Positions 10,634-56,247 of a stretch of 64,000 bases of DNA are shown here, one piece after another. The notes below the pieces were generated by a model. It was not told the origin of the DNA. It was given only the letters and a program-made list of their open reading frames with translations, and ran no database searches. A program made the translations under genes and the position numbers. This DNA comes from a virus. Every line of letters begins with the position of its first letter. Within the stretch, counting starts at the first letter, position 1. Location of the stretch: positions 1 through 64,000 of IMG/VR virus record IMGVR_UViG_3300037961_005428; one strand, written 5' to 3'.

Positions 10634-10917
10634 TCTTCCTCATCCTCCCTCAAGTCACGCCATGGGTCACGCAAAGTCTCTCCAACGAACTCATACCTTT
10701 TCACCATCGTGACCCCACATGCGGTGCAGGCCCATTCACCGTGAGCCGTCTCGCCAAACTCGTTAAAGCCCGACACCGATAATTCCTTCATGAGCCAATC
10801 ATGCTCACTGTGCTTGCACCTGTTAAGTGCCCAATGCCTGCTTTTGAAATCCTCAAGCCGACCCAGTAGTTGCTGTAGCCTCATCATTTCTGCTCGTATT
10901 GTGTCTTCAATTGTCAT
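10630..10917 (-). CDS. Helical protein with a Cys/His zinc site
   Basis: 95 residues: an N-terminal helix (RAEMMRLQQLLGRLEDF), then CKHSEHDW (34-41) and CTACG (64-68), a Cys-His-Cys-Cys set able to bind zinc. It ends REDEEE, glutamates encoded by the ribosome-binding site of the clamp-loader gene, which it overlaps by ATGA. Family unknown. Confidence 0.6.
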   Translation of the reverse strand: MTIEDTIRAEMMRLQQLLGRLEDFKSRHWALNRCKHSEHDWLMKELSVSGFNEFGETAHGEWACTACGVTMVKRYEFVGETLRDPWRDLREDEEE

Positions 10918-11204
10918 TCTTCTTCGCCTCCGTGTGTCGGGACTGGTTCAACGATGGACCTTGACGGGAACCGATAATCGGGGACTATCAACGGGTAGCG
11001 TAGGGGTGGGGCACGCCAAGCCATCCAGCCTTCTTTGGGCCGAATGTGGTTATCAAGTTCAAGCGCGGTGTACCCCACCTTGAGTTGTGGAATCCGGTTG
11101 ACCATCATGACTTTGTATGTCTCCATGCCCAAGTTGTAGGAGATACCATTTGACTCCAACAGAGCCCACTCGTCTTGTCCAACAGTGATTCTTATTCGCT
11201 TCAT
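10914..11204 (-). CDS. Hypothetical protein, tandem paralogue copy B
   Basis: 96 residues. It is clearly homologous to the gene immediately upstream (11201-11440): both start MK-R-RITVG, share VMMVNRIPQLKVG, and end in nearly the same RFPSR-IVEPVPTHGGEEE. The 3' ends of the two genes are almost identical in DNA as well. It has no recognisable domain; this copy has an insertion after IPQLKVG (LELDNHIRPKEG). Confidence 0.65.
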   Translation of the reverse strand: MKRIRITVGQDEWALLESNGISYNLGMETYKVMMVNRIPQLKVGYTALELDNHIRPKEGWMAWRAPPLRYPLIVPDYRFPSRSIVEPVPTHGGEEE

Positions 11205-11440
11205 TCTTCTTCGCCTCCATGTGTCGGGACTGGTTCAACGATGGCCCTTGACGGGAATCGGTATACGGGGGTGGGGCTGGGGGCCTCCCAAGCAACCCAT
11301 CCATTGGTCATTTTCACAACAATGCACCCCACCTTGAGTTGTGGAATGCGGTTGACCATCATGACTTGGTATTGCTCACTCCCAATCGGCTCCAGCAGGG
11401 CCCACATGTTTCGTCCAACTGTTATTCTCATTCGTTTCAT
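11201..11440 (-). CDS. Hypothetical protein, tandem paralogue copy A
   Basis: 79 residues from the ATG at 11440, chosen because it gives the same MKR-RITVG start as its neighbour copy and has GGAG eight bases upstream. It shares VMMVNRIPQLKVG and the PTHGGEEE tail with the adjacent gene, so the pair arose by duplication. Function unknown. Confidence 0.65.
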   Translation of the reverse strand: MKRMRITVGRNMWALLEPIGSEQYQVMMVNRIPQLKVGCIVVKMTNGWVAWEAPSPTPVYRFPSRAIVEPVPTHGGEEE

Positions 11441-11445
11441 TTTGT

Positions 11446-12897
11446 TCACTCCATTTCAATTATGTCGGTCAGTTGACTGATGTCGCTGAATCCAAGTTCA
11501 TCATCAGCGTACAGAATTTCTCCTGTTATGGTCATCGTGCTCAGTCGGACATCGTTGACCTTCGCCGCTACCACCACAGCCTGTTCTTCAACAGGTAACC
11601 AGTGGGGGCCGACGAGGACGCCTTGCCTCGCCAGTCGTGTGCGAATGTGCTGGGCCGTCTCCATTGACAGCCGTGCCTCCATGACTTGATACGGGTCAAT
11701 CCCGTCCAATACCCCCAGCCTTGCATGGGTTTCATACTCGGCGTCTTTCTTGAGGGACATGAGAAGCAGGTTGATGTTGTAAGCACCATCCATTACCAGC
11801 CAGCCACCTTGCTCGCCGATGTTGAACGGGCCGTCGTAAGTGAGGCGTAATCGCTCACCTTCTTCCAGTGCATTTGTAAGGTGCGTAATGGATGAGCCTG
11901 CCTCAATTCGCTGCCCTGTTCGGACAGTTCCTTTCACAGTCAGCCCACTCAGTAGAGCAAGCCGTTCACTCATCGGTCTTTGGTACACGCTCCAGTCGTC
12001 GTCCAGTGACAGTATATCAGTGATTGACTTGATGATGTTCCCCTGCACCTCCACTTCCAGCACACAGGGCTGGTTCAATGGGAGGTCAAGGTTGTGCACC
12101 TTACCCGCTGGTCGCTTGTCCCGATTGTAGAGGACACCAGCAAAGGTGCCGGTCGGGAACTCAGTAATGTGTAGATAGCGACGGGGGTGACGAATCACCT
12201 CAGCATAGATGCTGGGAGGGGCTGTCGTCTGTGTCCACGCTTTGTAGAGTGGGGCACGAAACGGCTGACCCGGCTGAATCTGTTCAAGGGGCGTGACCTC
12301 GGTGTCGGAATACTTGAGCATCCTCACCAGCAGTTCGGGCGCTGATGTCGTGTCCAACTTCTGCCGCACCGCTTTGAGGCTCAGTGCCTCGCCCTCGCCA
12401 ATGTGAGAGCAACGCTGTATGAATCGGTCAATCGGGTAGGGGGCGTTCTCGCCCAGTGCCCTTGCCCAAAACAACTCGGCTTCATCAGCACTCATCATCC
12501 GTGCCATGGTTAGCACAGTCGTCTCGCTCAGTTGGTGCATGTGGCGGAGGGCTTGCTTCACTGTCATGTTGCTCGCCATGTTGCCTTCACTCTCCTTGGC
12601 CAGCATCGGCACGAAGGGTTTGCCGGTGAACACCTCGTCCCATACAAGGGGGGAGATAGCCAACTCGGCACACACATTCTCTTTGACCCAGCCGTCTGTA
12701 ACGAAACGGGGTGGGTGTTTGGAATGCCGTGGGTAGAAAATGTCCACGATGTCTTCGTAGTCTCCGTCGCAAGCCTCCATGAGTTCCGTGATGGCTGACA
12801 GGGATTGACGGAAGTCTTCTCCACTGTCACCGGAGCCACGGCCATAGTGCAACTTACGAAGGGTGCGTGCCACTTGCGTGGCCAAGGACAAGAGCAT
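11446..12897 (-). CDS. Large unknown protein of the replication operon
   Basis: 483 residues from an ATG two bases after the upstream stop; longer in-frame upstream sequence was discarded. The N-terminal 200 residues look helical (LATQVARTLRKLHYGRG, ITELMEACDGDYEDIVDIF), and a FVPMLAKESEG segment near 125 recalls the start of ATP-dependent DNA ligases. A K-x-D-G nucleotidyl-transfer motif is not visible, so active ligase function is unsupported. The C-terminal half is beta-rich (GQRIEAGSSITHLTNALEEG, GGWLVMDGAYNINLLL). It could be a degenerate ligase-like scaffold or an unrelated family. Confidence 0.55.
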   Translation of the reverse strand: MLLSLATQVARTLRKLHYGRGSGDSGEDFRQSLSAITELMEACDGDYEDIVDIFYPRHSKHPPRFVTDGWVKENVCAELAISPLVWDEVFTGKPFVPMLAKESEGNMASNMTVKQALRHMHQLSETTVLTMARMMSADEAELFWARALGENAPYPIDRFIQRCSHIGEGEALSLKAVRQKLDTTSAPELLVRMLKYSDTEVTPLEQIQPGQPFRAPLYKAWTQTTAPPSIYAEVIRHPRRYLHITEFPTGTFAGVLYNRDKRPAGKVHNLDLPLNQPCVLEVEVQGNIIKSITDILSLDDDWSVYQRPMSERLALLSGLTVKGTVRTGQRIEAGSSITHLTNALEEGERLRLTYDGPFNIGEQGGWLVMDGAYNINLLLMSLKKDAEYETHARLGVLDGIDPYQVMEARLSMETAQHIRTRLARQGVLVGPHWLPVEEQAVVVAAKVNDVRLSTMTITGEILYADDELGFSDISQLTDIIEME

Positions 12898-13837: not shown

Positions 13838-14127
13838 TGTGTTCCCTCCATGTACCAAATGATTTTCTTGCAGCACCGAGTTGGCACCATGCGGTAGCGT
13901 TCCGTCATGATGACCGTGGTCGTGCGGTCCTTCTCTCCACACACCGGGCACTTCTCTATTTGAGTGTTGACCACTGCCAGCACCTCTTCGTGTTCCAACT
14001 CACCGGATGCCGAAGCATCGCCGGGGATGGGAAGGTCGGAGCCGAGTAGGCTCCAACGCTTCCCTCCGTGGTTGAAGTTGCCGTCCTCATCAATGGATTC
14101 AGCCGTCATTCGTCGTTCTTCTGACAT
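13834..14127 (-). CDS. Small zinc-finger-like protein
   Basis: 97 residues. CPVCGEKD (60-67) and RCCKK (84-88) provide four cysteines. The N-terminal half is acidic and probably flexible. It overlaps the genes on both sides by one or four bases. Confidence 0.55.
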   Translation of the reverse strand: MSEERRMTAESIDEDGNFNHGGKRWSLLGSDLPIPGDASASGELEHEEVLAVVNTQIEKCPVCGEKDRTTTVIMTERYRMVPTRCCKKIIWYMEGTQ

Positions 14128-15680
14128 CAGTAGATTACCTCCGAGAAGAGTGGCACCGAAGCGAGTTGTTCCTCAAGGACTGACTCGGACTGGTCAAGTA
14201 GTGCATCGGGGTTGCCGCCAATTGTAGCGATAACATTGTCGCTGACCTTGCGAAGCATGGTGTGCGTGTCGGTGAGTTTCTTGTCCATGGCATTGAAGCC
14301 GAGGGTCTTGCCTTCCAGTGGTTTGTTGCGGTAGTGCTCGTTGTCTTGGTAGACCGGCTTGTGGGTCACCGCCCCGGTGAGGATGTTGTAGACATGGTAC
14401 AGGGTGTGCTGGTCGTCGCCTTGAACATTGACCCATCGGTTGGAAGGAGTGGTCCATCCCTGCCCCATGACCCGCCACATGTGGCCACGGCTGAGATGAG
14501 TGATTTCTCCCTTGTCATCACGGTGGACAGTCGGTTTGGTAATGAGGCCGGCTCTCTCACTCAGCGTCATCAGTCGCTCAAAGGCTTCGTCGCTGACGGT
14601 GATGTTGCGCATGGCTTCAACCTCAATCAGTTCCTCGGCGGCCGACAGCATGACTTGCTCAAGTTTGTCAGCGAGTGAGTTGAAGTCGTAGTTCTCCATG
14701 ACACCCTTGGTGTGTCGCAACTTGAGTAGGGTCTGTGATTTGCCAACGACCATGCCGTTGGTGCACACCAGTCGCTGAGCGATAGCGGCGACCTTGAATG
14801 AGGATGAGCCGTCCAAACTGTTGTAGATGGAAAAGCCAACACGGTAATCACCCTCCTTCACAAAGCCAAGGTTCTGCCATCGGCTACCAAGTTTGTTCTG
14901 TGCGGCTGTGTTCCAGTCAACGCTGCTGGTGACATCCACATCCATGCGGGCGTTCTTGCCCTCGCCGTAAGCGAAGACCTTTGCCGGCCAGCCGTTCTTA
15001 GCACACATGTCTAAAATGGGACGGAAGCCCCGTGCATACGGCATGGCGTAGTAGGTCGGGCTGAACATCCCAAGGTGGGCACCAAGGGGTCGCTGAGGGC
15101 TGGCGTAGTTCGGGTTGAAAATGTGCTTGACAATGGGCTTGCCATCGTTGTCCACAATTTTCGCCGCCGAAGTCTGCCCGCTTCGCTCGTCTTCGTAAAG
15201 GACGAAGCCCATTTTCTCAGTGGGCTGGAAGTCCCAGTCAGCCGTCGCCTTGTTCTTTCGGTTTCCTGCGTAAAGGAAGTCGTCAAAGGGACCGGCGGCG
15301 TTCACCGACACCTGCCCATCTGCTCCAACTTCCATCACCAGTCGCTCTTCTGTGCCAAAGTTTGGCACCTCGTCGTTGTGTTCTTCATTCATGTTGTTCT
15401 CTCCGTTCGGTATTTGTTCTCCATATTCCATCGCTTCAACGATGGCAATGTCTTGTGCTGTGACAATGAGCGGGGCATTGCTGCCGTAGAGTTGGGCTTC
15501 TGTGGCACCACTCACGGTGATAGCCACTCGGCCGTCGTCTAACGATTCAAAGCGTTCAATGTCCTGCCGCTCAATGTTGAGGTTCTTCACCCCAGCATTG
15601 GACGGGTAGTCCACAAACACCCTATCTGCTCTGCTCTCTGTCACTCTTCCAATCACTGTCGTTCCGGTCTGCATGTTCAT
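14127..15680 (-). CDS. DUF932-like protein, first gene of the replication operon
   Basis: 517 residues. The core from about 170 onward matches the DUF932 phage/plasmid family: DEGDYRVGFSIYNS-type strand (here KEGDYRVGFSIYNSLDG), then IAQRLVCTNGMVVG, its most conserved block, and the helical SLADKLEQVMLSAAEELIEV. The first 140 residues are an extra beta-rich and acidic region. DUF932 proteins are abundant in phages and plasmids but of unknown biochemical role. A promoter and a hairpin lie upstream, so this gene heads the minus-strand operon; a second ATG two codons in is an alternative start. Confidence 0.7.
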   Translation of the reverse strand: MNMQTGTTVIGRVTESRADRVFVDYPSNAGVKNLNIERQDIERFESLDDGRVAITVSGATEAQLYGSNAPLIVTAQDIAIVEAMEYGEQIPNGENNMNEEHNDEVPNFGTEERLVMEVGADGQVSVNAAGPFDDFLYAGNRKNKATADWDFQPTEKMGFVLYEDERSGQTSAAKIVDNDGKPIVKHIFNPNYASPQRPLGAHLGMFSPTYYAMPYARGFRPILDMCAKNGWPAKVFAYGEGKNARMDVDVTSSVDWNTAAQNKLGSRWQNLGFVKEGDYRVGFSIYNSLDGSSSFKVAAIAQRLVCTNGMVVGKSQTLLKLRHTKGVMENYDFNSLADKLEQVMLSAAEELIEVEAMRNITVSDEAFERLMTLSERAGLITKPTVHRDDKGEITHLSRGHMWRVMGQGWTTPSNRWVNVQGDDQHTLYHVYNILTGAVTHKPVYQDNEHYRNKPLEGKTLGFNAMDKKLTDTHTMLRKVSDNVIATIGGNPDALLDQSESVLEEQLASVPLFSEVIY

Positions 15681-15749: not shown

Positions 15750-15777
15750 CTATTGTTTTGATTCTTTATAAGGAGAA
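15750..15777 (-). promoter_or_regulatory. Repeated archaeal-type promoter, copy 1
   Basis: On the minus strand the core reads TCCTTATAAAGAATCAAAAC, with TTATAAAG as TATA box. The identical 28 bp occur at 20443 and 29941. The predicted start, about 25 bases downstream, lies near 15742, leaving a roughly 60-base leader before 15680. Because CTTTATAAGG is nearly palindromic, the same box could also serve the plus-strand kinase-like gene at 15817. Confidence 0.65.
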
Positions 15778-15816
15778 ATAGGAAATAGTTATCTCGTACG
15801 AACACTTGGCTCACAC

Positions 15817-16620
15817 ATGGACCCGGTTGATGTAGCGTGGTCCATATTGAAGGCGGCCTTTCAGCCAGCCAAAGGAGTACAGATTGGGGCAGGGATGAAC
15901 CAAGTGGTGTTCGGTCAATCCGGAAACCCCGATGTGGTGAAGGTCAGTGACCTTGATAAGAACCCCTCGCAATTGGATGCGATGTATTACAATCAGTTGC
16001 TGAGCACAATGCCGATGGGAATGTTTGCAGGGCAACAGCCCATTGAGCAGAGGATGCCGCTGCCAGTAGAATTGAGGGAAATGAGTATGCCGATTTTGTC
16101 GCGACAGCCCCGTGGTAGAGCAATTGCTGGTAGTCCCCTTGGAATAAATGAAGACACGGCGAGAGGAAGAATCATCCAGCAAAGTGTGTACAACGCGCTC
16201 CCGCTTCTTGAAGCGATGAATTTGACAGACCTCAAACCACAGAACTGGATGGGGCACCATAGTGCCAGTGGTTTGATGAACGAGTATCAGTTGAGAAAGC
16301 CGGGAATAGGTCGGCCACGGGACCCCAAGCCTGTGGTCATCCATGACCCGGACTTTGGCGAGGCGGGGGTCTTCCAACCAATGCAGGGTGTTGGTCGCAG
16401 AAGACCCGGTGTAGACTTTGATGTGCCCGAGACTCCTCTGTATCTACTTCAAAAGCGGATTGACCGGACGCCATTTGATAAGTTCGTAGAACCTATTGAA
16501 GACTCGTACAGCGACTACCATGGCGGAAGGGGCTATGATGAATTACGGGACAGGTTGGCTCAAAGAGAGCGAGCCATCAACCGCATGTTCTCACACATCG
16601 GCCTCAGTGGGCAGGGGTAA
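15817..16620 (+). CDS. Small protein-kinase-like protein with N-terminal cargo tag
   Basis: 267 residues. It begins MDPVDVAWSILKA, the tag shared with late virion-region proteins. Kinase hallmarks follow in order: glycine loop IGAGMNQVVFG (23-33), VVKV with Lys-42, catalytic loop LTDLKPQNW (136-144) with the D-x-K-x-x-N triad, and HDPDFGE (176-182) as the DFG motif. The C-terminal lobe is short, so it is a minimal kinase. It stands alone on the plus strand inside the early minus-strand block. With the tag, the likeliest reading is a kinase packaged in the capsid and delivered to the host, comparable in logic to T4 Alt; an inactive pseudokinase cannot be excluded. Its last 30 bases overlap the convergent gene. 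Confidence 0.7.
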   Translation: MDPVDVAWSILKAAFQPAKGVQIGAGMNQVVFGQSGNPDVVKVSDLDKNPSQLDAMYYNQLLSTMPMGMFAGQQPIEQRMPLPVELREMSMPILSRQPRGRAIAGSPLGINEDTARGRIIQQSVYNALPLLEAMNLTDLKPQNWMGHHSASGLMNEYQLRKPGIGRPRDPKPVVIHDPDFGEAGVFQPMQGVGRRRPGVDFDVPETPLYLLQKRIDRTPFDKFVEPIEDSYSDYHGGRGYDELRDRLAQRERAINRMFSHIGLSGQG

Positions 16621-16857
16621 GCGGCGGAACTCAGCCACCAAGTGACTGATGCCCGGCTCGCCAGCGAACTTGACAAAGGTGCCGACATCTGACCAGTCCG
16701 GCTGTGTCTCGTGCGACAGGTTCGCCTGTGTCACACGCCAAATGAATTTGCCTACGACACGCTTGAGCGCTTCTTCGTCGTCGCCGTAGAGGCGAATCAA
16801 TTGGTCAAGCATTGTCAGCAGGCCCAGTAGGCTTGTACACCATTCGTCTTCAAACAT
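16591..16857 (-). CDS. Small helical hypothetical protein
   Basis: 88 residues from an ATG eight bases inside the upstream gene. The sequence is helical (SLLGLLTMLDQLIRLYGDDEE) and contains FIWRVTQANLSH. Its 3' end overlaps that of the convergent kinase-like gene by 30 bases. No family recognised. Confidence 0.5.
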   Translation of the reverse strand: MFEDEWCTSLLGLLTMLDQLIRLYGDDEEALKRVVGKFIWRVTQANLSHETQPDWSDVGTFVKFAGEPGISHLVAEFRRLPLPTEADV

Positions 16858-17041
16858 TCTTCTTTCCCTCCCACCATTCGGGCGGGTCTTTCGTACCCAC
16901 CCAGTCAAGGAGTCCGTCGTAGATGTTGCGCTGGATGCGTAGGATGGAACCGTAGTCCTCCCACACATCGCCGCCCTCTCGTCGCACGAGGAGCATGATG
17001 TGGCACTCGTCCTTCATCTCAGCGTCAAGCACTTCGGTCAC
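16850..17041 (-). CDS. Small hypothetical protein
   Basis: 63 residues (MTEVLDAEMKDECHIMLLVR..., ending WWEGKKNV). ATGA overlap with the upstream gene supports translation. Nothing recognisable. Confidence 0.5.
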   Translation of the reverse strand: MTEVLDAEMKDECHIMLLVRREGGDVWEDYGSILRIQRNIYDGLLDWVGTKDPPEWWEGKKNV

Positions 17042-38559: not shown

Positions 38560-38823
38560 ATGGCTCAGCCGATGGACATCGCTTGGATGGTGTTGAAGCA
38601 AGAAGGCTATGAGGACTATGTGGACCCTACATTAGACCAATCCTCAAGTTATTATCCCCCAATCCAACCTTCGGCACCAAGTCCGGAGCCACAGGAGTAT
38701 TTTTCTTTACCTCAAAGCCCGCAGGCCCGCCTTATGAGACTGTATTCAAAGGCACAGTCTGTTGGCTACGCTAATTTGACAGATGCAGAACGGGACGAAA
38801 TAAGAGCACTGGGTGGTATGTAA
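38560..38823 (+). CDS. Cargo-tag protein 1 (small)
   Basis: 87 residues. Starts MAQPMDIAWMVLKQEG, the shared tag. A Pro/Ser/Tyr-rich linker follows, then a helical end (AQSVGYANLTDAERDEIRAL). First gene of the rightward arm. Apart from the tag nothing is recognised. Confidence 0.65.
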   Translation: MAQPMDIAWMVLKQEGYEDYVDPTLDQSSSYYPPIQPSAPSPEPQEYFSLPQSPQARLMRLYSKAQSVGYANLTDAERDEIRALGGM

Positions 38824-38825
38824 GC

Positions 38826-39293
38826 ATGCATTCGCTTGAACAGGCTTGGTCTGTCCTCAAGCAGTATGACCCTCAGCGGTCCCTGCATGGGCGCTCGGTC
38901 ATGTTTCCACAGATGCGCTCACCTACTGTAATAGTTGAGAACCGACAAGTAGGTCGGGATGGACTCCCTTTGCATACTTTGGGTAGAAACCGCGCTTCCG
39001 GCGGCTATTCACAGATGGACCCCAAGTACAAGGGCCTCTTTACACCTTATCACGAACAAGACCTACCGGGCCCGCTTCATGAAGTGAGGTTCCAGCATCA
39101 GCGTAAAGGCCGGAACCTTACACCCGATGAGCGGCTTGTCCGAGTAACGGCTGACCGCAACCAAGCGATTGACCGGGCCAACCAGTTCCACCAAGACCGC
39201 ATTGATGCCATGCAGAATTTGCCCGAGCCCGGCAGTTTTTCACGGCCTCCCAACCCGGACTTCAATCCCTTCACGATGTCCGGTGGTCAATGA
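38826..39293 (+). CDS. Cargo-tag protein 2
   Basis: 155 residues. Starts MHSLEQAWSVLKQYD. The remainder is polar and probably extended (QVGRDGLPLHTLGRNRASGG), with a helical end (RVTADRNQAIDRANQFHQDR). Overlaps the next gene by ATGA. Unknown. Confidence 0.6.
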   Translation: MHSLEQAWSVLKQYDPQRSLHGRSVMFPQMRSPTVIVENRQVGRDGLPLHTLGRNRASGGYSQMDPKYKGLFTPYHEQDLPGPLHEVRFQHQRKGRNLTPDERLVRVTADRNQAIDRANQFHQDRIDAMQNLPEPGSFSRPPNPDFNPFTMSGGQ

Positions 39294-40261
39294 TGTCCCC
39301 CCTTGAAACGGCTTGGTCTATCCTCAAAGCACAAACTGAACTGGGTCAACATCACCCCGACTTCCCTTCTTCACAGGGCCCGGTGCTTGGGTACCACGGT
39401 CGCAATTTCTCAACCAAGTTCAATAACCCCTTTGGCAATTTTTACGACGCCAAGCGTGAGGTGTTTGATGACGACTTTGAGGCTATGCAAGAAGCCGTCG
39501 CCAACATCAAGGCAGCGCAACTTCTTCAAACGGGCCTTGTGCCAACTGACACGGCTGAATCGCAAGTCGGTAGTGGGCGCTTCAATCAATATGACGACAA
39601 GGGCGTACACAATTACGGAGTGGACACGAAGTTCAATCCCGACATCCCTGCCTCTATTTCGGTGGCAGTTGAGCCCCACACGGCGATTGGCTATGCAGAA
39701 GGTGCGAGAGGCTACAAGGACTCAAGCGGTCTGCCCGGCTTCTACGGGATAAGGGCTGGAGCCATGCAAAACGCTTTGCCCTTGGACGAGCCTTTGCGCC
39801 GCTACAAAATAGGTGATACGGACGATTTCATCTACAACAATCAGCGATACCGCTACATCCCGCACGGCATCGCTCCCAACCAAATGGTCCGCTTCGCTGA
39901 TGCTCAATCCATGGAAGAGTTTGATGAAGGCGTCACAAGTCCGTGGTACGGGCGTGAAAGAAAGCGTGCGCCTTCGCGCTTTATTGGAGTCGGCCCCGGT
40001 CAGTTTAGGGGTAGGGACCTTCAACTCTTGGAAGAGGGCAAAATGAATGTGGATGAGTTTAGAAGTCCCGAGCGGGACACTCAAAGGGTGATGGAGTCCG
40101 AACAATTCATTCGTGACCAAATTGCTCAGTATCAGCAACAGCAACTCGCCCAGCAGCAAGCGATGGCCCAACGGCAGGCTGACCAGCAAGCCGAGCAAGC
40201 GTTTAGGCAGCAACAAATGGCAGCGGCACCTCAACAACAACTTCCAATCGGGGTGCGGTGA
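39290..40261 (+). CDS. Cargo-tag protein 3, possible ADP-ribosyltransferase fold
   Basis: 323 residues. Starts MMSPLETAWSILKAQ. VLGYHGRNFSTKF (near 31-43), ISVAVEPHTAIGYAEGARG (near 121-139), GFYGIRAGAMQNALPLDE and YRYIPHGIAPNQMVRF are in the order expected of ADP-ribosyltransferase-like enzymes (Y-x-G start, a strand with A-x-x-Y-A, then G-x-Y-x-V). The catalytic Glu is not certain. The C-terminal 60 residues are Gln/Ala-rich. If real, it would parallel T4 Alt, a packaged ADP-ribosyltransferase; treat as tentative. Confidence 0.5.
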   Translation: MMSPLETAWSILKAQTELGQHHPDFPSSQGPVLGYHGRNFSTKFNNPFGNFYDAKREVFDDDFEAMQEAVANIKAAQLLQTGLVPTDTAESQVGSGRFNQYDDKGVHNYGVDTKFNPDIPASISVAVEPHTAIGYAEGARGYKDSSGLPGFYGIRAGAMQNALPLDEPLRRYKIGDTDDFIYNNQRYRYIPHGIAPNQMVRFADAQSMEEFDEGVTSPWYGRERKRAPSRFIGVGPGQFRGRDLQLLEEGKMNVDEFRSPERDTQRVMESEQFIRDQIAQYQQQQLAQQQAMAQRQADQQAEQAFRQQQMAAAPQQQLPIGVR

Positions 40262-40296
40262 AGAAACTTTATCTCTTCGCCCTCACTGCGACACAC

Positions 40297-41499
40297 ATGG
40301 TCGCAGCCTTGGACGCCGCTTGGTCGCTCCTCAAGGCTTTGGATGAGCAGCAGTTGTACACACAAGCCAATCCCGGCCCTGCGGCACCAATGGGCTTCGG
40401 CGATGTCCCATATCCGCAATATGAGCAAATGCGACTCGGCACTGCCCATCCGGCGATATCGGGTTTACTTGAGCGTGTAGAGCACATGAGGGCCAACCCC
40501 TACTCCGGAACTCAAAAAGACCATCCCCAAGATGTTTACGACCCCGAAAAGCGGTTTGAAAGGTTTGGTAGACTTGGTGGAGGTTATGGGAGCCTCATTC
40601 ATAGTTTTGGCAACCAGCCTTCTCTCCGTGTAGACTCGGGGCAACTGGCTAATATGATACAGGACAGTGGTATGCGCCATCACTTCGCTACTCAAACAGA
40701 CGAGGAAGCACTTAGGGAAATGCAAGACAACCGGCCAAGGCATGATTACACCCCTCTTCCGTATATACCACGAATGACGGGTAGGGCTGACCCCACAACG
40801 GTAGAGGGTGTACCCGGTGTCAAATTCGGCCCTCCACCTATCGTTTATGACAACTTCCAAACACGGGATAGCGAGGGAAACTTGGTAACGAGATTTGGTA
40901 GCCAGCAAAAACACCCAAGGTATGATGCCCATTATGATGAGCGACAAAACCCATTAACGGGCGTCATAGATGATTTTGAATTTGGGCCAATTCAATTTCC
41001 TCAAGCGCCAATTCCGGGCGTACCGGGCGGCGCTCACCATCCCAGTCTTGACACACCTCCCGAGGTCGGTATGGTTGGACAAATAAGACCACAACACCCT
41101 TCCGCGAAAGCCTTTGGCGCACCAATCAATATCCTAAGTACATCTCGTGGTAGAAGTGGTGTTGCACAAAGTGGATTTTATCCCCCCTATAGCCAACACC
41201 TTAGAGACATGCGAGGCCGTGGTGAAGACGATGACATCACTTCGTGGCACCTTTCCCGACAACCTTCTACGGATATTTACCAAGGACATGGTGGTGACAA
41301 AGTTGCCAACTTGCGGGGAGGTGCTGACCCCTTCCCGATGAAACAGTTGGGCCAAGAACTGGCTCAAGGCGCTCGTTCTCCCAATCGCCTAAGTAGGGCT
41401 CTAAGTAGCATTTTTAATCGCTTCCGCCGCCCTCAAGTTAATGAGCCTCAGTTTGATTTCGCCTTTGACGAACCACAGTATGATTTGAGGGGGCTGTGA
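40297..41499 (+). CDS. Cargo-tag protein 4
   Basis: 400 residues from ATG 40297, which places MVAALDAAWSLLKALDE at the extreme N-terminus as in its neighbours; a GTG at 40258 overlapping the previous stop would add 13 residues and has a better ribosome-binding site, so the start is open. Proline-, glycine- and histidine-rich with few helices (QFPQAPIPGVPGGAHH), ending in a basic helical part (LSRALSSIFNRFRRPQ). Unknown. Confidence 0.6.
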   Translation: MVAALDAAWSLLKALDEQQLYTQANPGPAAPMGFGDVPYPQYEQMRLGTAHPAISGLLERVEHMRANPYSGTQKDHPQDVYDPEKRFERFGRLGGGYGSLIHSFGNQPSLRVDSGQLANMIQDSGMRHHFATQTDEEALREMQDNRPRHDYTPLPYIPRMTGRADPTTVEGVPGVKFGPPPIVYDNFQTRDSEGNLVTRFGSQQKHPRYDAHYDERQNPLTGVIDDFEFGPIQFPQAPIPGVPGGAHHPSLDTPPEVGMVGQIRPQHPSAKAFGAPINILSTSRGRSGVAQSGFYPPYSQHLRDMRGRGEDDDITSWHLSRQPSTDIYQGHGGDKVANLRGGADPFPMKQLGQELAQGARSPNRLSRALSSIFNRFRRPQVNEPQFDFAFDEPQYDLRGL

Positions 41500-41503
41500 T
41501 AAC

Positions 41504-42133
41504 ATGAACCCAATAGACGCAGCATGGTCAATCCTCAAGGCTGACCCCAATCTCCGTATGGTGCACGGCGGCGTCTACCCCAACGCCCGTTTCGGTGGAC
41601 GGAGTCAAACCATGCACCCTGCTATCGCTGGGATGATGCAAGGTATCGGTGAGGGAAGAAGTCCCATACCGATGGAAGACATTGAGGGCGTTGATACTGG
41701 TTTTTTTGACACACACACTCCCGCTCGCTACCGAACTTGGCCCCAACCGTATAGTGAAGCACACGGCAATTTAGACAGTGGAGACCATCTGTACTCTATG
41801 GGAAGCCTCCGGTCCATGGTCCCGGTTAGATACCAAGGCGCTCCCAAAACTCCCGACCGACTTCTTTACGAGATGTCAAAGGTTTCTCCTTACAGAATGT
41901 ACGATACTGCAAACCTGCAACAAATTGATGACCCTTCTCAAAATGAAGAGTTTATGCAGGCTTTCAATGCCTATCCCGAGAAGTTGCGTCAATTCTATGA
42001 GCAACAAGGAGACATGGATGTGCACCCGCACACTGTTGCCCGAATAGCCGGTCGCCAAGATTACGGTCGTATAGGTCGCACGGGCAACCCCGACAACATT
42101 CAAATGATACCCGACATGATGGGAGCGATGTGA
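41504..42133 (+). CDS. Cargo-tag protein 5
   Basis: 209 residues. Starts MNPIDAAWSILKADP. The junction GTGATAACATGA before and inside its start is repeated at the next gene (42138), and the tag-coding DNA is similar, so 5' ends seem to have been copied. Rest of the protein unrecognised. Confidence 0.6.
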   Translation: MNPIDAAWSILKADPNLRMVHGGVYPNARFGGRSQTMHPAIAGMMQGIGEGRSPIPMEDIEGVDTGFFDTHTPARYRTWPQPYSEAHGNLDSGDHLYSMGSLRSMVPVRYQGAPKTPDRLLYEMSKVSPYRMYDTANLQQIDDPSQNEEFMQAFNAYPEKLRQFYEQQGDMDVHPHTVARIAGRQDYGRIGRTGNPDNIQMIPDMMGAM

Positions 42134-42137
42134 TAAC

Positions 42138-42506
42138 ATGAGCCCAATGGATGCCGCTTGGGCGATACTCAAGGCTGACTTTTATAGCGATAAGCAACGA
42201 GCCCTTGAACAAGCCCTTGGTCCTGTGTACGGTCATGTAAGAATGGCTCGGGGCAAAGCACAAGAAGAAGCCGAGAGGATGCCGTACTCAACAGACCCCA
42301 AGGTTAGGGCAACACAAGGTCCGCTTGACTATCTGTTTGCGGGAATGGACATTGAGCCGGAGTTGATGAGGCCACCATCACCTTGGCCTAACCCTCCTAC
42401 TTACGCCGCTCCTCCGCCGGCTGACCCCGAGTTCATGGCTCGCATCAAGGCTGACGAAGAAGAGTCGCAACAGCGCAAAACCGAGCGTGAAGAACGGAAG
42501 CGTTAA
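42138..42506 (+). CDS. Cargo-tag protein 6
   Basis: 122 residues. Starts MSPMDAAWAILKADF. Pro-rich middle (PPSPWPNPPTYAAPPPADPE) and charged helical tail (KADEEESQQRKTEREERKR). Unknown. Confidence 0.6.
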   Translation: MSPMDAAWAILKADFYSDKQRALEQALGPVYGHVRMARGKAQEEAERMPYSTDPKVRATQGPLDYLFAGMDIEPELMRPPSPWPNPPTYAAPPPADPEFMARIKADEEESQQRKTEREERKR

Positions 42507-42632
42507 GTAGGGGATGCCCAACATAGGGCACTAAGGGAGAGGCGGTACCCTCCAGTCGTGTGTTCTTTTGGGCTCTGAATCACTTCTCGCATTTCTTCAT
42601 TCCGCCGCCTCTCCCCCCTTTCGGTGAAAAGT
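42507..42632. other. Intergenic region with long inverted repeat
   Basis: GGGAGAGGCGG (42535-42545) and CCGCCTCTCCC (42605-42615) are perfect complements 60 bases apart, and TGCCCAACATAGGGCA (42515-42530) is a small hairpin before them. The segment could end one transcript or shape the leader of the next gene; no gene is visible inside. Confidence 0.45.
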
Positions 42633-42767
42633 ATGCCACGGCGCAAAAGTCCTGCTTGCCCTTATTGTCAGCAACAACCTACTCAGCGACTGTACTCCAA
42701 AGCCGGCGGTACTTTGCACGGCGTGGCTTGGCACTGCCCCGTGTGCGAGTGCATGTGGAAACTTTGA
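42633..42767 (+). CDS. Small zinc-ribbon protein
   Basis: 44 residues: CPYC (9-12) and CPVC plus C (35-40), with GGTGA six bases before the ATG. Basic start (MPRRKSPA). Read directly from the sequence. Possibly nucleic-acid binding. Confidence 0.6.
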   Translation: MPRRKSPACPYCQQQPTQRLYSKAGGTLHGVAWHCPVCECMWKL

Positions 42768-42778
42768 TGTAGCCACCC

Positions 42779-43186
42779 ATGCTGTCACGCCACATGGCGG
42801 ATGCTATAGAGTGGTTGACCGACGAGGAAATCATCGGAAAGACCGACTGGTCCGATGTGGCGTTTTGCGATTGTTGCTCGCCACTTGAGATTTCTATGGC
42901 CGTTGTCAAGGCGAAGCGAAAGTCCAAGCCTTTTCACGGCTACAATCCAAACAAGCACGCCAAGACCGGTGGGCTGAACGCCAAGGGTCGGGCGGCTGCG
43001 AAGCGCAAGACTGGGGCCAATCTCAAGCGCCCCGTCACCAAGAAGCCCAGCAAACTCAAGCGAGGTAGCAAAGCCTCCAAGCGACGCAAGTCATTTTGTG
43101 CCCGCATGTCGGGTGTCAAAGGTCCGACCAGCAAGAAAGGTAAACTCACTCCCAAGGGAGCCGCTTTGAAGAGGTGGAACTGTTGA
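42779..43186 (+). CDS. Basic DUF6321-like protein with tag-like segment
   Basis: 135 residues. SPLEISMAVVKAKRK (34-48) aligns with the cargo tag, preceded by FCDCC. The rest is very basic with GGLNAKGRAAAKRKTGANLK and KSFCARMSGVKGPTSKKGK then RWNC, the conserved blocks of a small domain frequent in marine phages and MGII-type viruses (DUF6321 as I recall it). Probably binds DNA. A GTG at 42857 is a credible later start that would bring the tag near the N-terminus. Confidence 0.65.
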   Translation: MLSRHMADAIEWLTDEEIIGKTDWSDVAFCDCCSPLEISMAVVKAKRKSKPFHGYNPNKHAKTGGLNAKGRAAAKRKTGANLKRPVTKKPSKLKRGSKASKRRKSFCARMSGVKGPTSKKGKLTPKGAALKRWNC

Positions 43187-43377
43187 ACTGTGACTGTGAG
43201 CATTGCTTTGGTATGCAGACGGCTTGGGACCTTCTTGAGAAGAAATTGTGCCCGGCTGGTAAAGCGGCGGCGAAGCGGAAGTTCAAGGTGTACCCATCGG
43301 CTTACGCTAACGGATGGGCCGTACAATACTGCAAGGGCAAGTTCCGTGGCAAAAAGAAAGGGGGCAAAAAGAAATGA
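43183..43377 (+). CDS. Small basic protein with tag-like segment
   Basis: 64 residues from a TTG that overlaps the previous stop and has GAGGTG upstream; ATG 43213 is the alternative. NCDCEHC leads into MQTAWDLLEKKLCP, a variant of the cargo tag. Then AAAKRKFKVYPSAYANGWAV and a Lys-rich tail, a block seen in small virion-associated proteins of marine phages. Probably packaged and DNA-binding (inference). Confidence 0.6.
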   Translation: MNCDCEHCFGMQTAWDLLEKKLCPAGKAAAKRKFKVYPSAYANGWAVQYCKGKFRGKKKGGKKK

Positions 43378-43922
43378 ATCCAATGGACGCAGCGTGGAAT
43401 GTGCTAAAGGCACTACCAAGTCGTGAAGTGGTGCAGAACAGATACCGTTTTACTGGACAAGGGCACCCATTTTTGGATGAAAAAGGTAATCCCACCCCCG
43501 AAACCAAAAGAGATTTGGTTGAGCAAATGGGGATTGGAACAAGGCACCCTGCTTTGAATCCAGCGCATGTCATTGAAAGCGTGAGTGGCAGACCCACCAA
43601 TATCACAGAAGGTTCACACCTTAGCCCAATAGAGCCCACTGACATTTTGCGCTATCCTACGGGCGACAGCATAACCGGTGCTGAAACTGGCAGAGCGGAG
43701 TTGGAAAACACGCGTCAACGACGAATTAACGAAAGAAGTCAACGCCGTTTGACGGGAAATACATCCCCTCCAAGGCTCATTGACCATCATCGTTACACAC
43801 ATTTGCCCCCCGGCAACTACTATGGTGGCAACCTTCCAAAAAATAGCGCACTCAGCGACGAAGAAATGGAAAACTTGCGTCAACAAGCGCAACAGATGCC
43901 CTTTTCGTATGAAGGTCAATGA
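43374..43922 (+). CDS. Cargo-tag protein 7
   Basis: 182 residues from the ATG overlapping the previous stop (ATGA). Starts MNPMDAAWNVLKALPSREV. The remainder is polar (DSITGAETGRAELENTRQRR) with no recognised domain. Confidence 0.6.
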   Translation: MNPMDAAWNVLKALPSREVVQNRYRFTGQGHPFLDEKGNPTPETKRDLVEQMGIGTRHPALNPAHVIESVSGRPTNITEGSHLSPIEPTDILRYPTGDSITGAETGRAELENTRQRRINERSQRRLTGNTSPPRLIDHHRYTHLPPGNYYGGNLPKNSALSDEEMENLRQQAQQMPFSYEGQ

Positions 43923-43931
43923 GGGATAAAA

Positions 43932-44138
43932 ATGCACGCTCTTGAACATGCTTGGCGCATCATCAAGGGCAAAGAGGATGCTCCAAATTATCGCAAAGCC
44001 ACGGGGCCAAAGAAGTGCGGCAACTGCAAGGCTTGGGATTCTTCAAAAACTGACGACCCTATGACGGGGTATTGTGAGTGGTACGATTTTACTTGTCGTG
44101 CCGACCATGTGTGTGATGCTTGGGCGGGGAAGAAATGA
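43932..44138 (+). CDS. Cargo-tagged Cys-rich (HiPIP-like) protein
   Basis: 68 residues. Starts MHALEHAWRIIKGKE. Then KKCGNCKAWDSSKTDD, YCEWYDFTC and HVCDAW: Cys-29, 32, 47, 53 and 59 with Trp/Tyr around them, the pattern of small high-potential iron-sulfur-like proteins found in phages. Metal type is not determinable here. Confidence 0.6.
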   Translation: MHALEHAWRIIKGKEDAPNYRKATGPKKCGNCKAWDSSKTDDPMTGYCEWYDFTCRADHVCDAWAGKK

Positions 44139-44719
44139 GTGAACAGTGCCCTTGTTGCAGCGTGATGGTTGTCAAAGACCTTAACCGCTGGTTCAAGGAG
44201 AAGTGGGTGGATGTGTCTCGCAAAGACAAGGACGGCAAGCACCCACCTTGCGGGCGCAAGAAGGCCAAGAAGGGGAGCAAAGGTTACCCTAAGTGCCGGC
44301 CGTCAGTCAAGGTGTCAAGCAAGACGCCGAAGACCTCCGGTTCTATGACTGAGGGGCAGAAGCGTGCGGCGACCAAGCGTAAGCGGTCCAAGAAGCAAGG
44401 AGTTGGCGGAAAACCGACGATTGTCAAATCACTGGTGCTCAAGCGACCTGTCAGTCCCGAGGCCAAGCGTCACAAGTTGGAATACGACACCAAGTACGAG
44501 TCTACGCCCGAGCGTGTCAAGTATCGGGAAGAACTTAAGCGTGAACGCCGACATAGAGGTATTGACGGTAAAGGGGGTCCGGACATGAGTCACACGAAAG
44601 ACCACACCCTTGTCGCCGAAGACCCTCACACCAACAGAGCCCGCCACTTCAAAGAGCGAGGCACACTCAAGGGCGACCCTATGGACATCGCTTGGCTCCT
44701 TGTCAAAGGTGAGTGGTGA
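44135..44719 (+). CDS. DUF5872-like basic protein with C-terminal cargo tag
   Basis: 194 residues from the ATG overlapping the previous stop. CPCC (5-8), WVDVSRKDKDGKHPPCGR, KGYPKCRPS and QKRAATKRKRSKKQGVGGKP are the blocks of the DUF5872 domain of marine viruses. It ends DPMDIAWLLVKGEW, the cargo tag at the extreme C-terminus instead of the N-terminus. Strongly basic overall, so DNA binding is likely. Confidence 0.7.
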   Translation: MSEQCPCCSVMVVKDLNRWFKEKWVDVSRKDKDGKHPPCGRKKAKKGSKGYPKCRPSVKVSSKTPKTSGSMTEGQKRAATKRKRSKKQGVGGKPTIVKSLVLKRPVSPEAKRHKLEYDTKYESTPERVKYREELKRERRHRGIDGKGGPDMSHTKDHTLVAEDPHTNRARHFKERGTLKGDPMDIAWLLVKGEW

Positions 44720-44964
44720 TGACCGAATACCCCTTTGACAGTTGGGGCTTTCAGTTCGTGCTCACGCTGGACGACCACCTGCAAATCATGCAGGACTTAC
44801 TTGACCACTACGCTGACATCATTGACATGCTGGAGGACGCCTGCGACAACAACGATGCGTTGCTCGCCGACCTCGTGGACGCTCAAGAGCAATACATGAT
44901 TTTGCGACAGGCTTATGAAAAAATGAAACATGGGGGTAATTGGTTGCATGCTGAGTCCAACTGA
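44719..44964 (+). CDS. Small acidic helical protein
   Basis: 81 residues; ATG overlaps the previous stop. Long acidic helix (LDHYADIIDMLEDACDNNDA, then LVDAQEQYMILRQAYEKM), a probable coiled coil. Its end overlaps the start of the next gene by 17 bases. Scaffold or chaperone for the neighbouring tagged protein is possible. Confidence 0.55.
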   Translation: MTEYPFDSWGFQFVLTLDDHLQIMQDLLDHYADIIDMLEDACDNNDALLADLVDAQEQYMILRQAYEKMKHGGNWLHAESN

Positions 44965-46072
44965 CGCCGCTTGGTCTGTCCTTGAAGAAGGGCACCGTGT
45001 GGACAAGGCCCTTCCGTTCCTCATTCCGGCGGCGATGTTAGCCTATGGCGGCTATCAAGGTGCGAAAAATGTCAAGGAAAATCGTATCACTGACCCCTTT
45101 TTAGGGGTGGTCGGTACCGAAGGCAATGATTCACTCGGTAGTAACCTTGCCGAGTTTGGGACAGGTTTTGCACAGGGCGTTGTCCCCGTCAAGGGTGGAG
45201 GCTTTTTGGCCCGGAAGTTTGGTGGCCGCCGTGCAGCAAAGCGTGCAGCAGCACGAGAAGCCGCAGAAAAGGAGGCGGCTGAGGCTGCGGCCCGCCATCA
45301 AGCGTTGTCTGCTCAACAGCGAAGGGGTGTGCTACAGCGGGAGAATCCCGAAGTTGGCTATGTGTTTGGTGAAGTAGCCCCTTATGTTTCTCCTTCCCAA
45401 CTTGGTGCTGTTCGCCAAACGATGAACGCTGCCCAAGCACGGGCTGCCCGGCTGGCTCCGAGAGCACAAGCACCAGTCGCTCCGTTGACACTGGGTCAGC
45501 GTGCAAAGTTGGTTGCAGCCACAGGCGCTGGTGCAGCCACTGCTTATGCTCCCGAAATTATGATGGCACTTGGGCTCGCTGGGAGTCCGCCCACCAGTAC
45601 AGAATTTGGAGGATTTGGTGCAACAGGCACAGGCGGTTTCGGCGCAGGGCAGGGTGGTCAACAGGGCTTCCAACTCGCAGGTCAACAGTCCGGCGGCGTT
45701 GGTGGTGTGCAAAATGTCGGTGTGAGCGGTATGGCTGACCACGACATTTTCCAAGGCAAGCAATTCCAGTCGGCTCCGACATCATCAAATATGCAAGCCC
45801 CTTCCATCAAACAGAAGGGGACCCCTATGTCGCTCGGAAACAATCTCATCAACTCCACCTTGAGTGTAATGGAACGCAACATTATGAAAGCCAGTGTGTG
45901 TGAACGCTGTGGCAAGAAAGGCTGCGTCAACAAAATGCACTGCATGGCGAAAGCCGATGATGGCAAAAAGAAAAAGCCAGCCCACGGCATGGTCATTGTC
46001 ATTGGCTCCAAAGCCGGCCCGGGCCCGTCAACGAACGGCAAGCGGGACGACAAAAAGGACGACAAAGAGTGA
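44948..46072 (+). CDS. Cargo-tag protein 8, glycine/alanine-rich
   Basis: 374 residues from ATG 44948. Starts MLSPTDAAWSVLEEGHR. Then a hydrophobic stretch (LPFLIPAAMLAYGGYQGA), an Ala/Arg/Glu helix (AKRAAAREAAEKEAAEAAA), a Gly/Gln-rich region (GGFGATGTGGFGAGQGG) and a Cys-rich basic end (CERCGKKGCVNKMHC). The mosaic suggests a virion component that contacts membrane and nucleic acid. Unknown family. Confidence 0.6.
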   Translation: MLSPTDAAWSVLEEGHRVDKALPFLIPAAMLAYGGYQGAKNVKENRITDPFLGVVGTEGNDSLGSNLAEFGTGFAQGVVPVKGGGFLARKFGGRRAAKRAAAREAAEKEAAEAAARHQALSAQQRRGVLQRENPEVGYVFGEVAPYVSPSQLGAVRQTMNAAQARAARLAPRAQAPVAPLTLGQRAKLVAATGAGAATAYAPEIMMALGLAGSPPTSTEFGGFGATGTGGFGAGQGGQQGFQLAGQQSGGVGGVQNVGVSGMADHDIFQGKQFQSAPTSSNMQAPSIKQKGTPMSLGNNLINSTLSVMERNIMKASVCERCGKKGCVNKMHCMAKADDGKKKKPAHGMVIVIGSKAGPGPSTNGKRDDKKDDKE

Positions 46073-53807: not shown

Positions 53808-54748
53808 TGGAAGGTGAAGTGTTGGTCAAAGCCCGCCCTCGTCTTCAATACAACATGAGTGGTCAGCCCAGCATGTATTTTGAACGAGACGGCCGTGGCG
53901 AAAGTGCTACCCCAACAAAGCGTGAGCGTTTAGCCGGACTTGCTGGCGGATTAGTTGGCGTAATGGGCGGGCTTACAGGTAAGCATCGTAGCCTTGGCAG
54001 TTTGTTGGGTAGCATGTACGCTGGCAAAGTCCAAGGTGAAGGCATTGGTCGTGGTCTTGCTGGTAAAACTGTTTCCCGAGCACGGCGTGCAGAATTGAAG
54101 GAGCAGGAGGACCGACTTGCAGCAGAGGCTCAAAAAGAAGGTCAGCGGAGATTTAGAGAAAGGCGACCAATTGGCATCCGTGCTCGCAACGCTCGCATGC
54201 TCGCTGCCGAAGATGAGGCGTTAGCACGAGCGGGTTCGGCGGAAGAAGAATTGCGAGCCTCGCAAGCGGCTTCTAAACGAATGGGTAAAATTGGTAGAGA
54301 CTTCCGAGTAGCGCAGAATAAAGCGGAGCGTAGAGCGGTTAGCCGAGAAGACATGTCAAGGGCTCGTGCACTACGGGGTATGAGTCCGGCGCAAATAGAG
54401 CGGTTTAAAGAACTGGACTCAGCGGGTCTTGAAAGGTTACAAGCGATTGCTGGCATATTGGATGAAACGGTAAATCCGTACGCTCAAATCAACCCAACTG
54501 TAGGAGAAATGAATCAGCAGCAAGTTCCTCAAGGAACAGTTCAACCGCTGCAATTCGGCCCGGGCGCTCAAATGACTTTGCAGGCAGGTGAAGAGATTAC
54601 ACCGGAGCATGCTGACCACAATAATGAAGGCTTGACAACTCAACTCGGACTGGATATTGCTGACGAGCAAGAAAAGGAGTCGGAACAAACCATGGGGTTG
54701 GGACAGTCTGAGTTTGGTAACCTTTTGGGCAGGATGGGGCCACAATGA
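53807..54748 (+). CDS. Helical, Gly-rich virion-region protein
   Basis: 313 residues from the ATG that overlaps the previous stop. A glycine-rich hydrophobic segment (LAGLAGGLVGVMGGLTGK, about 43-60) recalls glycine-zipper membrane-inserting helices; a long Ala/Arg/Glu coiled coil follows (AELKEQEDRLAAEAQKEGQ). The end is acidic. Could be an ejection or membrane-penetrating protein. Overlaps the TerL start. Confidence 0.55.
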   Translation: MEGEVLVKARPRLQYNMSGQPSMYFERDGRGESATPTKRERLAGLAGGLVGVMGGLTGKHRSLGSLLGSMYAGKVQGEGIGRGLAGKTVSRARRAELKEQEDRLAAEAQKEGQRRFRERRPIGIRARNARMLAAEDEALARAGSAEEELRASQAASKRMGKIGRDFRVAQNKAERRAVSREDMSRARALRGMSPAQIERFKELDSAGLERLQAIAGILDETVNPYAQINPTVGEMNQQQVPQGTVQPLQFGPGAQMTLQAGEEITPEHADHNNEGLTTQLGLDIADEQEKESEQTMGLGQSEFGNLLGRMGPQ

Positions 54749-56247
54749 GTGATAATCCTGCCATCAAAGACCTCGTCCATCAAGTGGACACTGAGATGTG
54801 CAAGAAGAGTTTCAAGTATTTTTTTCACGACATTTTGGGGTTTGACTACTCCTATCACCACGGTTGCTGGGAGAAAGGGCTGAATGAAAACCGCTACTAC
54901 TGCGTGAAGGCGTCCCGTGACCACGGTAAATCCGTGTTCTTCATGTCCTACGCTCTGTGGTTGGGAGCGTTCCAGCCCAACACGCACATCATGGTGTTCA
55001 GTCACAGTCTTGAGCAGACCCTTGAGCACATGCGTTTCATTCGCAGCAACATTGAGGGCACGGACTTGCTCAAGCATCTCAAGCCTTCGGGCAAGCCGTG
55101 GGCCAAGTCCTACTTTGAGTTCACCAATGGCAGTCGTATTATGGCCAAGTCGGTCGGTGGTGCTACTCGTGGGTTCCACCCCGATGTCGTGGTCTGCGAC
55201 GACATCCTGTGGGGAACGACCACGGGTGAGTTGCAGCGTGCGGCTGACTGGTTTTACACCGTCCTTCTCCCTGTGTTGCACCACACGGGTCGCATGATGA
55301 TGGTCGGCACGCCGTTTTCTTACGACGACCTGTACGCTGAGTTGGAGGAAAAAGACACCTTCACGGTAGAGACATATCCTGCTATCAACGACAAAGGCGA
55401 AGCCTTGTGGCCGGAGCGATGGGACTTGGATGCTCTCAAAATGCGTGAGTCGTCCATGCCTGCTATCCGGTTTGCTCGTGAGTATTTGTGCGAGCCAATC
55501 CACGACACCTCCAGCATGTTCCCGCACAGCCTGCTTGAAGCAGCCCGTGACCCGAACCTCAAGGTCATGGACTACGCCGAGCACGAATACGACGAAAATG
55601 GTGAGAAGGCCGGACTGTTTGGACAGCATTTCATCGGCTGGGACCCGGCAATTGCGTCGGATAAGAACGCTGACTACACCGCCATGGTGGTGATTCGCAC
55701 TGTGCCGGGCGACGGCACCAAGCAAATCGTCCATGTCGTCAACGAAAAGGGACTTGGTGGCATGGCGCAAAAGAAGCGCATGCTCATCCTCAACAATCGG
55801 TTCCAGCCCGACCTCATTGAGTTGGAAGGTAACAACTTCCAGCGCATGTTTGAGGCTGAACTGCGGGACATGCGTGATGACATTCCCATCAAGACCTTCA
55901 TGACCACTCGTCAGCGAAAGGAGTCCATGTTCATGAGTTTGCTTTTGGCCTTTGAGCAGGGCCAACTCAAAACGCCGTGGGGCGATGAGAAGAGCAAGGA
56001 GTACACGAGGATTTTGGAGACGCAACTGAGTCGTTTCGGTATGAAGCGCAACGGCCGACTTGAGTCGGTGGGCAGCCACGACGACTTGGCTATGGCTGTG
56101 GCTCTTGCCAACTGGGGCACCAAGGAGTTCAAGGGCAGCATTATGCTGCTGGACGACGACGACTTACCCGGCTTTGACAAATGGTTCTTGGGCGCACCGA
56201 GCATGCCCAACCCCCGTTTCGGAGGAGATGATATTTTTGTGGCTTAG
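54745..56247 (+). CDS. Terminase large subunit
   Basis: 500 residues. ATPase: Walker A-like KASRDHGKS (55-63), Walker B DVVVCDDILWG (147-157). Nuclease: GWDPAIASDKNADYT (near 296), IELEGNNFQRM and SHDDLAMAVALA near the C-terminus give the acidic RNase H-fold set. It drives DNA into the capsid through the portal encoded two genes on. ATGA overlap with the gene before it. Confidence 0.93.
   Translation: MSDNPAIKDLVHQVDTEMCKKSFKYFFHDILGFDYSYHHGCWEKGLNENRYYCVKASRDHGKSVFFMSYALWLGAFQPNTHIMVFSHSLEQTLEHMRFIRSNIEGTDLLKHLKPSGKPWAKSYFEFTNGSRIMAKSVGGATRGFHPDVVVCDDILWGTTTGELQRAADWFYTVLLPVLHHTGRMMMVGTPFSYDDLYAELEEKDTFTVETYPAINDKGEALWPERWDLDALKMRESSMPAIRFAREYLCEPIHDTSSMFPHSLLEAARDPNLKVMDYAEHEYDENGEKAGLFGQHFIGWDPAIASDKNADYTAMVVIRTVPGDGTKQIVHVVNEKGLGGMAQKKRMLILNNRFQPDLIELEGNNFQRMFEAELRDMRDDIPIKTFMTTRQRKESMFMSLLLAFEQGQLKTPWGDEKSKEYTRILETQLSRFGMKRNGRLESVGSHDDLAMAVALANWGTKEFKGSIMLLDDDDLPGFDKWFLGAPSMPNPRFGGDDIFVA

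Follow-up and report, generated by a model that had tools for sequence, protein, structure and literature searches.

A protein with a predicted kinase fold and a putative capsid-cargo tag in a magrovirus-like archaeal virus

The protein kinase of phage T7 is made after infection and is not known to carry a virion tag. This enzyme (gp0.7) modifies host proteins (cited in PMC5512222). Four protein-modifying classes of polyvalent proteins have been listed, among them ADP-ribosyltransferases (ARTs), kinases and GNATs, which are thought to be delivered with the phage DNA, and for the kinases of polyvalent proteins this route was proposed (Iyer et al., 2017, PMC5512222). In T4, a short propeptide at the N-terminus directs the packaging of internal proteins and of the ART Alt, and for IPIII the first 10 residues are sufficient (PMC9026906). 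In P1, 30 N-terminal residues of DarB bring a reporter into the capsid; in the part of that paper available to us, no common tag on many P1 proteins is described (PMC9024508). The general idea of kinases among presumably injected phage proteins (PMC5512222), and of N-terminal capsid-targeting signals (CTS) in T4 and P1 (PMC9026906, PMC9024508), has known precedent. Here we describe a gene for a 267-aa kinase-like protein (15817-16620, +, ATG start) in a window of 64,000 nt, that is, the whole stretch of DNA analysed, which is part of a 96,499-base IMG/VR record (IMGVR_UViG_3300037961_005428). We lean towards an explanation in which the virus would produce a divergent kinase late, load it into the capsid by means of a tag helix and release it into an archaeal host. 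What appears to be new is the kinase family as well as the putative capsid-cargo tag that it carries, and the arsenal of proteins bearing this tag seems undescribed.

The initial annotation had read the protein as a minimal kinase, and the motifs it named are present in the claimed order, i.e., a glycine loop (G24-A-G26, within the glycine-rich region of residues 24-33, 15886-15915), the strand-3 lysine (V-V-K42, 15940-15942), a catalytic loop (D138-L-K-P-Q-N143, 16228-16245) and a "DFG" (D177-P-D179-F-G, with D177 to F180 at 16345-16356). Sequence searches of Pfam, PHROG and PDB with the protein gave no match, and no kinase hidden Markov model (HMM) family was matched by any of the 14 members at E<=10. 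An AlphaFold2 model built with 14 sequences (predicted local distance difference test, pLDDT, 82.9; predicted TM-score, pTM, 0.84) contains elements in kinase order, namely strands 21-25, 29-33, 39-45, 74-76 and 92-98 and helix 51-63, followed by the helix that precedes the catalytic loop and the strands flanking this loop; helices 205-260 are still present beyond D177. The fold search with this model gave best matches that were nearly all protein kinases. Among the matches listed by Foldseek against the PDB were AceK, SIK3, the mini-kinase OspG and others, plus two aminoglycoside kinases (E 1e-4 to 1e-2), and the viral matches (BFVD) were mostly small phage kinases or giant-virus kinases. The TM-scores were modest, at most about 0.5, and for this reason we consider the protein a divergent member of the superfamily. 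Judging from the model, it almost certainly has a protein-kinase fold.

Relatives of the kinase were retrieved from 13 IMG/VR loci and a fourteenth was found by profile search, giving a set of 15 proteins (including that of the window) from marine viruses, while the cellular genomes and phage records searched yielded no credible one. Fourteen proteins were aligned, the relatives being 24-87% identical to the protein of the window. The invariant residues were M1, A7, W8, L11, K12, G26, P38, K42, Q97, D138, N143, D177, F180, R195 and P226. The N-terminal tag accounts for five of these and the kinase catalytic set (K, D, N, D) for four; K42, Q97, D138, N143 and D177 are also retained in the fifteenth protein. 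Conservation of K42, D138, N143 and D179 had been anticipated, and the first three held in all 15 proteins. D179 did not, since relatives have Met, Ser, Ala or Gln instead (in contexts such as H-D-P-M-F-Y and similar), and the G of the "DFG" is likewise variable, so that the alignment rules out D179 as the DFG aspartate. Instead, D177 is invariant in the 15 proteins, in the context D-[PAG]-x-F rather than D-F-G, and is likely to be the DFG-equivalent, metal-binding residue.

The open reading frame (ORF) is a real gene under selection, since the dN/dS values (nonsynonymous over synonymous substitution rates) against the 87%-identical relative were 0.08/0.63 (NG86) or 0.086/0.447 (YN00), a ratio of about 0.13-0.19, third codon positions accounted for 75 of the 121 differences, and the frame of the antisense ORF at 15811-16377 (-) is lost in relatives. 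This last ORF was accordingly rejected as a competing gene.

Among described kinases, those of polyvalent proteins (Kinase-PolyVal, PF18762) offer the obvious comparison. The diagnostic Gln of their last N-lobe strand is also present here (Q97, 16105-16107, in strand 92-98, invariant in the 15 proteins). However, their HMM does not match the kinase of the window, and the Glu before strand 2 (residue 28 is N, F or W), the conserved His and the His-Asp insert are all absent. Membership in this family was rejected, as the HMM and two features fail. The family is also marked by loss of the C-terminal subdomain, a point on which helices 205-260 of our model bear. Besides, polyvalent kinases are found mostly in elements of the Verrucomicrobia-Chlamydia group and Bacteroidetes (PMC5512222), whereas the one described here is a stand-alone protein of 267 aa with its own tag in an archaeal virus. 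The Xylella phages Cota and Paz and the Aquamicrobium phage P14 have proteins of 180-200 aa that are small kinases by fold, with 12-15% identity over the match.

The kinase-like protein begins with MDPVDVAWSILKA (15817-15855), which had been described as a cargo tag. In the model this tag is a predicted helix (residues 3-12), of low confidence and apart from the kinase core. The existence of the tag was borne out. A relaxed pattern, [P/A]-[F/M/L/I]-[D/E]-x-A-W-x-[LVI]-L-K, had 12 matches in the 96.5-kb record versus a mean of 0.17 in codon-shuffled controls, an excess that is large despite the pattern having been defined after the tag had been seen. All 12 were on the late strand, 11 of them within a block at 38.5-46 kb (the start of the late region), and when 8 records were considered 48 out of 48 matches were on the terminase strand. 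The exact back-translated pattern was found in 94 stretches of IMG/VR versus only 2 in 257 Gb of cellular genomes (85,000 genomes). Methanofastidiosa virus vir519 gave no credible match to the tag. Over all loci we recovered 213 closed tagged ORFs of at least 60 aa, which formed 100 clusters once the tag was removed. Their consensus is M-x-[PA]-[FMLI]-[DE]-x-A-W-x-[LVI]-L-K (the search pattern itself prescribed the W and the class of the last residue), with nothing strongly conserved downstream. Codons differ between the copies, so the constraint acts on the peptide; the possibility of a nucleotide-level leader was rejected because of this variation and because internal and C-terminal copies occur.

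This situation resembles the CTS of T4 in that a short N-terminal peptide is found on otherwise unrelated proteins, including a protein-modifying enzyme. However, the sequence is different, there are ca. 100 cargo clusters across these viruses, the tag can also be internal or C-terminal, and there is a kinase instead of or beside an ART. DarB of P1 is similar in having an N-terminal signal on a large effector protein and differs in belonging to a bacterial phage (PMC9024508). By analogy, the tag is best read as a capsid-targeting signal like those of T4 or P1 DarB.

The record encodes a family-B DNA polymerase (PolB), an RFC-like clamp loader, an SNF2 helicase, a terminase (large subunit at 54745-56247, +, used as late-strand marker), a portal, an S78 prohead protease and an SU10-type capsid protein. 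Magroviruses, tailed viruses of Poseidoniales, have genomes of ca. 100 kb with PolB, an S78-type prohead protease, terminase, portal and major capsid protein (MCP) (PMC10160649), and in gene set and size our record is consistent with them. All phage records with a related capsid protein (11/11) were archaeal viruses, and in the phage collection no MCP match was to a named magrovirus record. The tag and the capsid appear together, as 34 of 50 contigs retrieved solely through the tag encode an MCP of the same family as this record (72-90% identity). Near their N-termini, the prohead protease (record positions 66411-67790) and the capsid protein (67812-68981; both within L091:2411-4981) carry the string [ILV][ILV]K[A/S/G]. 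It was found in 13/13 protease homologues, and in the form [IL]LKAD in 13/13 capsid homologues. These strings resemble the L-K-A end of the tag and could mark a common protease cleavage site in the three, but the site in the protease may be no more than a beta-strand. Between portal and protease there is a frame of ~1,940 aa (60552-64000, continuing to record position 66380, +), which possibly encodes a polyvalent protein; the corresponding place in HVTV-1 is taken by a long "zeta toxin" protein.

The kinase gene had been described as standing alone on the strand opposite to its neighbours, which is true here and in most of the 13 relatives. On one side there is a divergent DUF932 gene (14127-15680, -) and on the other a small early-strand gene (16591-16968, -), which keep their positions in 10 and 11 of the 13 relatives, respectively; the fourteenth relative adjoins a DUF932-type gene. 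A TATA box (TTTATAAG, 15765-15772, +) lies 52 nt upstream of the start, and 12 of 14 genes have TTTATAA between -52 and -83. The kinase and terminase genes share a strand in all 8 records that hold both. This orientation and the gene's own TATA box fit a separate, late-type transcription unit. Elsewhere in the window, two adjacent small genes (10914-11449, -) resemble tandem copies (MKRIRITVGQDEWALLE / MKRMRITVGRNMWALLE).

The presence of the same 12-residue tag on many unrelated viral proteins suggests that the kinase is loaded into the particle. Considering the ca. 100 unrelated clusters that bear it, the late-strand orientation and the link to one MCP family, we regard packaging of the kinase in the virion as likely. 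The kinase would be made late, and its N-terminal tag helix would act as a capsid-targeting signal that loads it into the prohead. On infection it would enter the archaeal host together with the genome DNA, and would phosphorylate host proteins before viral transcription is established, much as Alt of T4 acts by ADP-ribosylation. We infer all of these steps (late expression, packaging, ejection, activity and host substrate), and they do not deserve the same confidence. That the protein is an active phosphotransferase is quite probable, its release into the host is favoured by a small degree, and a host protein as its substrate is a tentative suggestion, with somewhat less than an even chance.

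Several observations weigh against this proposal. HVTV-1, a cultured relative by its MCP, does not have the tag, and the common MCP and the common tag could both reflect nothing but common descent. Some of the ART matches of tagged proteins fall below the Pfam cut-off, and an ART fold for one of them (39293-40261) was rejected, the model being too poor (pLDDT 59). Other unfavourable points concern the position of the tag and the catalytic residues and come with the explanations that they would support. One would be that the kinase is indeed packaged and that its substrates are viral, either co-packaged basic proteins (DUF6321/DUF5872-type) or capsid proteins, aiding DNA packaging or uncoating. 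The Lys-rich basic proteins of the tagged cluster bear the same tag, so that enzyme and substrate would occupy one compartment, but the kinase was undetected in several large records that do hold tagged proteins and would therefore be dispensable for assembly in some of these viruses, and we consider this alternative unlikely. The tag might also recruit its proteins to some other place or partner, such as the membrane or the machinery of late transcription or replication, with the kinase acting in the infected cell. Whereas the CTS of T4 is N-terminal, one of the tags here lies at the C-terminus and some are internal, and such a variety of positions would suit a general binding motif; however, the late-strand bias (48/48), the single MCP family and the effector-like cargo suit a capsid destination better, which leaves recruitment elsewhere with a low probability.

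A third alternative is that of a pseudokinase, an ATP-binding or scaffold protein with a kinase fold and no phosphotransfer. The residues preceding D138 are variable in the alignment of 14 and there is no HRD His, the catalytic-loop Lys (K140) is Gly in three relatives, and, as regards the helix-C Glu of kinases, helix 51-63 has no invariant Glu. The HRD His/Arg is missing from several atypical kinases too. Against a loss of activity, K42, D138, N143 and D177, on which ATP binding, metal binding and phosphotransfer depend most, do not vary among the 15 divergent proteins, and a pseudokinase seems improbable. Finally, a chance match of kinase-like motifs in an unrelated small protein, in line with the lack of any Pfam, PHROG or PDB sequence match, can hardly be entertained, being already contradicted by the confident predicted kinase fold, the structural kinase matches and the invariant catalytic residues.

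The remaining tagged proteins of the window, all on the plus strand, are found at 38560-38823 (PMDIAWMVLK), 38826-39293 (SLEQAWSVLK), 39293-40261 (ART-like by motif only, YHG...GIR...IAPNQMV, and with no relatives in a whole-protein search), 40297-41499 (ALDAAWSLLK), 41504-42133 (PIDAAWSILK), 42138-42506 (PMDAAWAILK), 43374-43922 (PMDAAWNVLK) and 44948-46072 (PTDAAWSVLE), together with a small Cys-containing protein at 43932-44138 (ALEHAWRIIK) that has a weak, sub-threshold match to DUF7140. A basic DUF6321 protein (42779-43186) has a degenerate internal tag (PLEISMAVVK), and a tag-like stretch, CFGMQTAWDLLE, occurs in a short basic ORF (43204-43239). In the DUF5872 protein (44120-44719) the tag is at the C-terminus (KGDPMDIAWLLVKGEW-stop), in the homologue of the closest relative it lies inside a longer frame, and in another record (G047) the tag appears twice within one frame of 701 aa (loci L127 and L232).

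The domain matches among tagged proteins were DUF6321, DUF5872, HD, GNAT, ART-PolyVal (below cut-off), PARP, D12 methylase and phage zinc finger. In many ART-like tagged ORFs (L190, L192, L198, L215, L220, L237) the tag runs into a common segment, K-RQTTLGEFHPDLPSPYGPV, that is followed by differing domains, as if N-terminal modules had been swapped. There are also tagged HD-domain proteins similar to small alarmone hydrolases (HD_4 match; L229:1640-2056, L150:1847-2260, L198:776-1189), which might serve to remove a nucleotide signal in the host. A D12-class adenine methylase (L152:7619-8527, E 2.7e-17) is tagged as well, and a DNA methylase would therefore belong to the cargo set. Overall, the tag on the 213 proteins (38560-46072, +, and loci L149-L242) may define the cargo set of these viruses.

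In the open-access papers searched we came across no account of the tag, nor of a virion-targeted kinase in an archaeal tailed virus, although one could exist in a subscription paper; the text of the magrovirus paper (PMC10160649) does not contain the words kinase or DUF932. There is about an even chance that this single tag marks out a modular set of interchangeable effectors delivered by the virion, in a group that ranks among the most abundant viruses of marine archaea. This arsenal would then comprise, with the same balance of confidence, kinases, ADP-ribosyltransferases, acetyltransferases, methylases, alarmone-type HD hydrolases and basic DNA binders. If so, capsid delivery by a readable address code would be seen for the first time in archaeal viruses, and the tag could be set beside the capsid cargo signals of T4, P1 and encapsulins as a new one. 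The proteins injected by an uncultured virus could be read from its sequence through a 12-residue address, and this would provide candidate host-takeover enzymes for viruses that infect abundant ocean archaea and lack cultured members.
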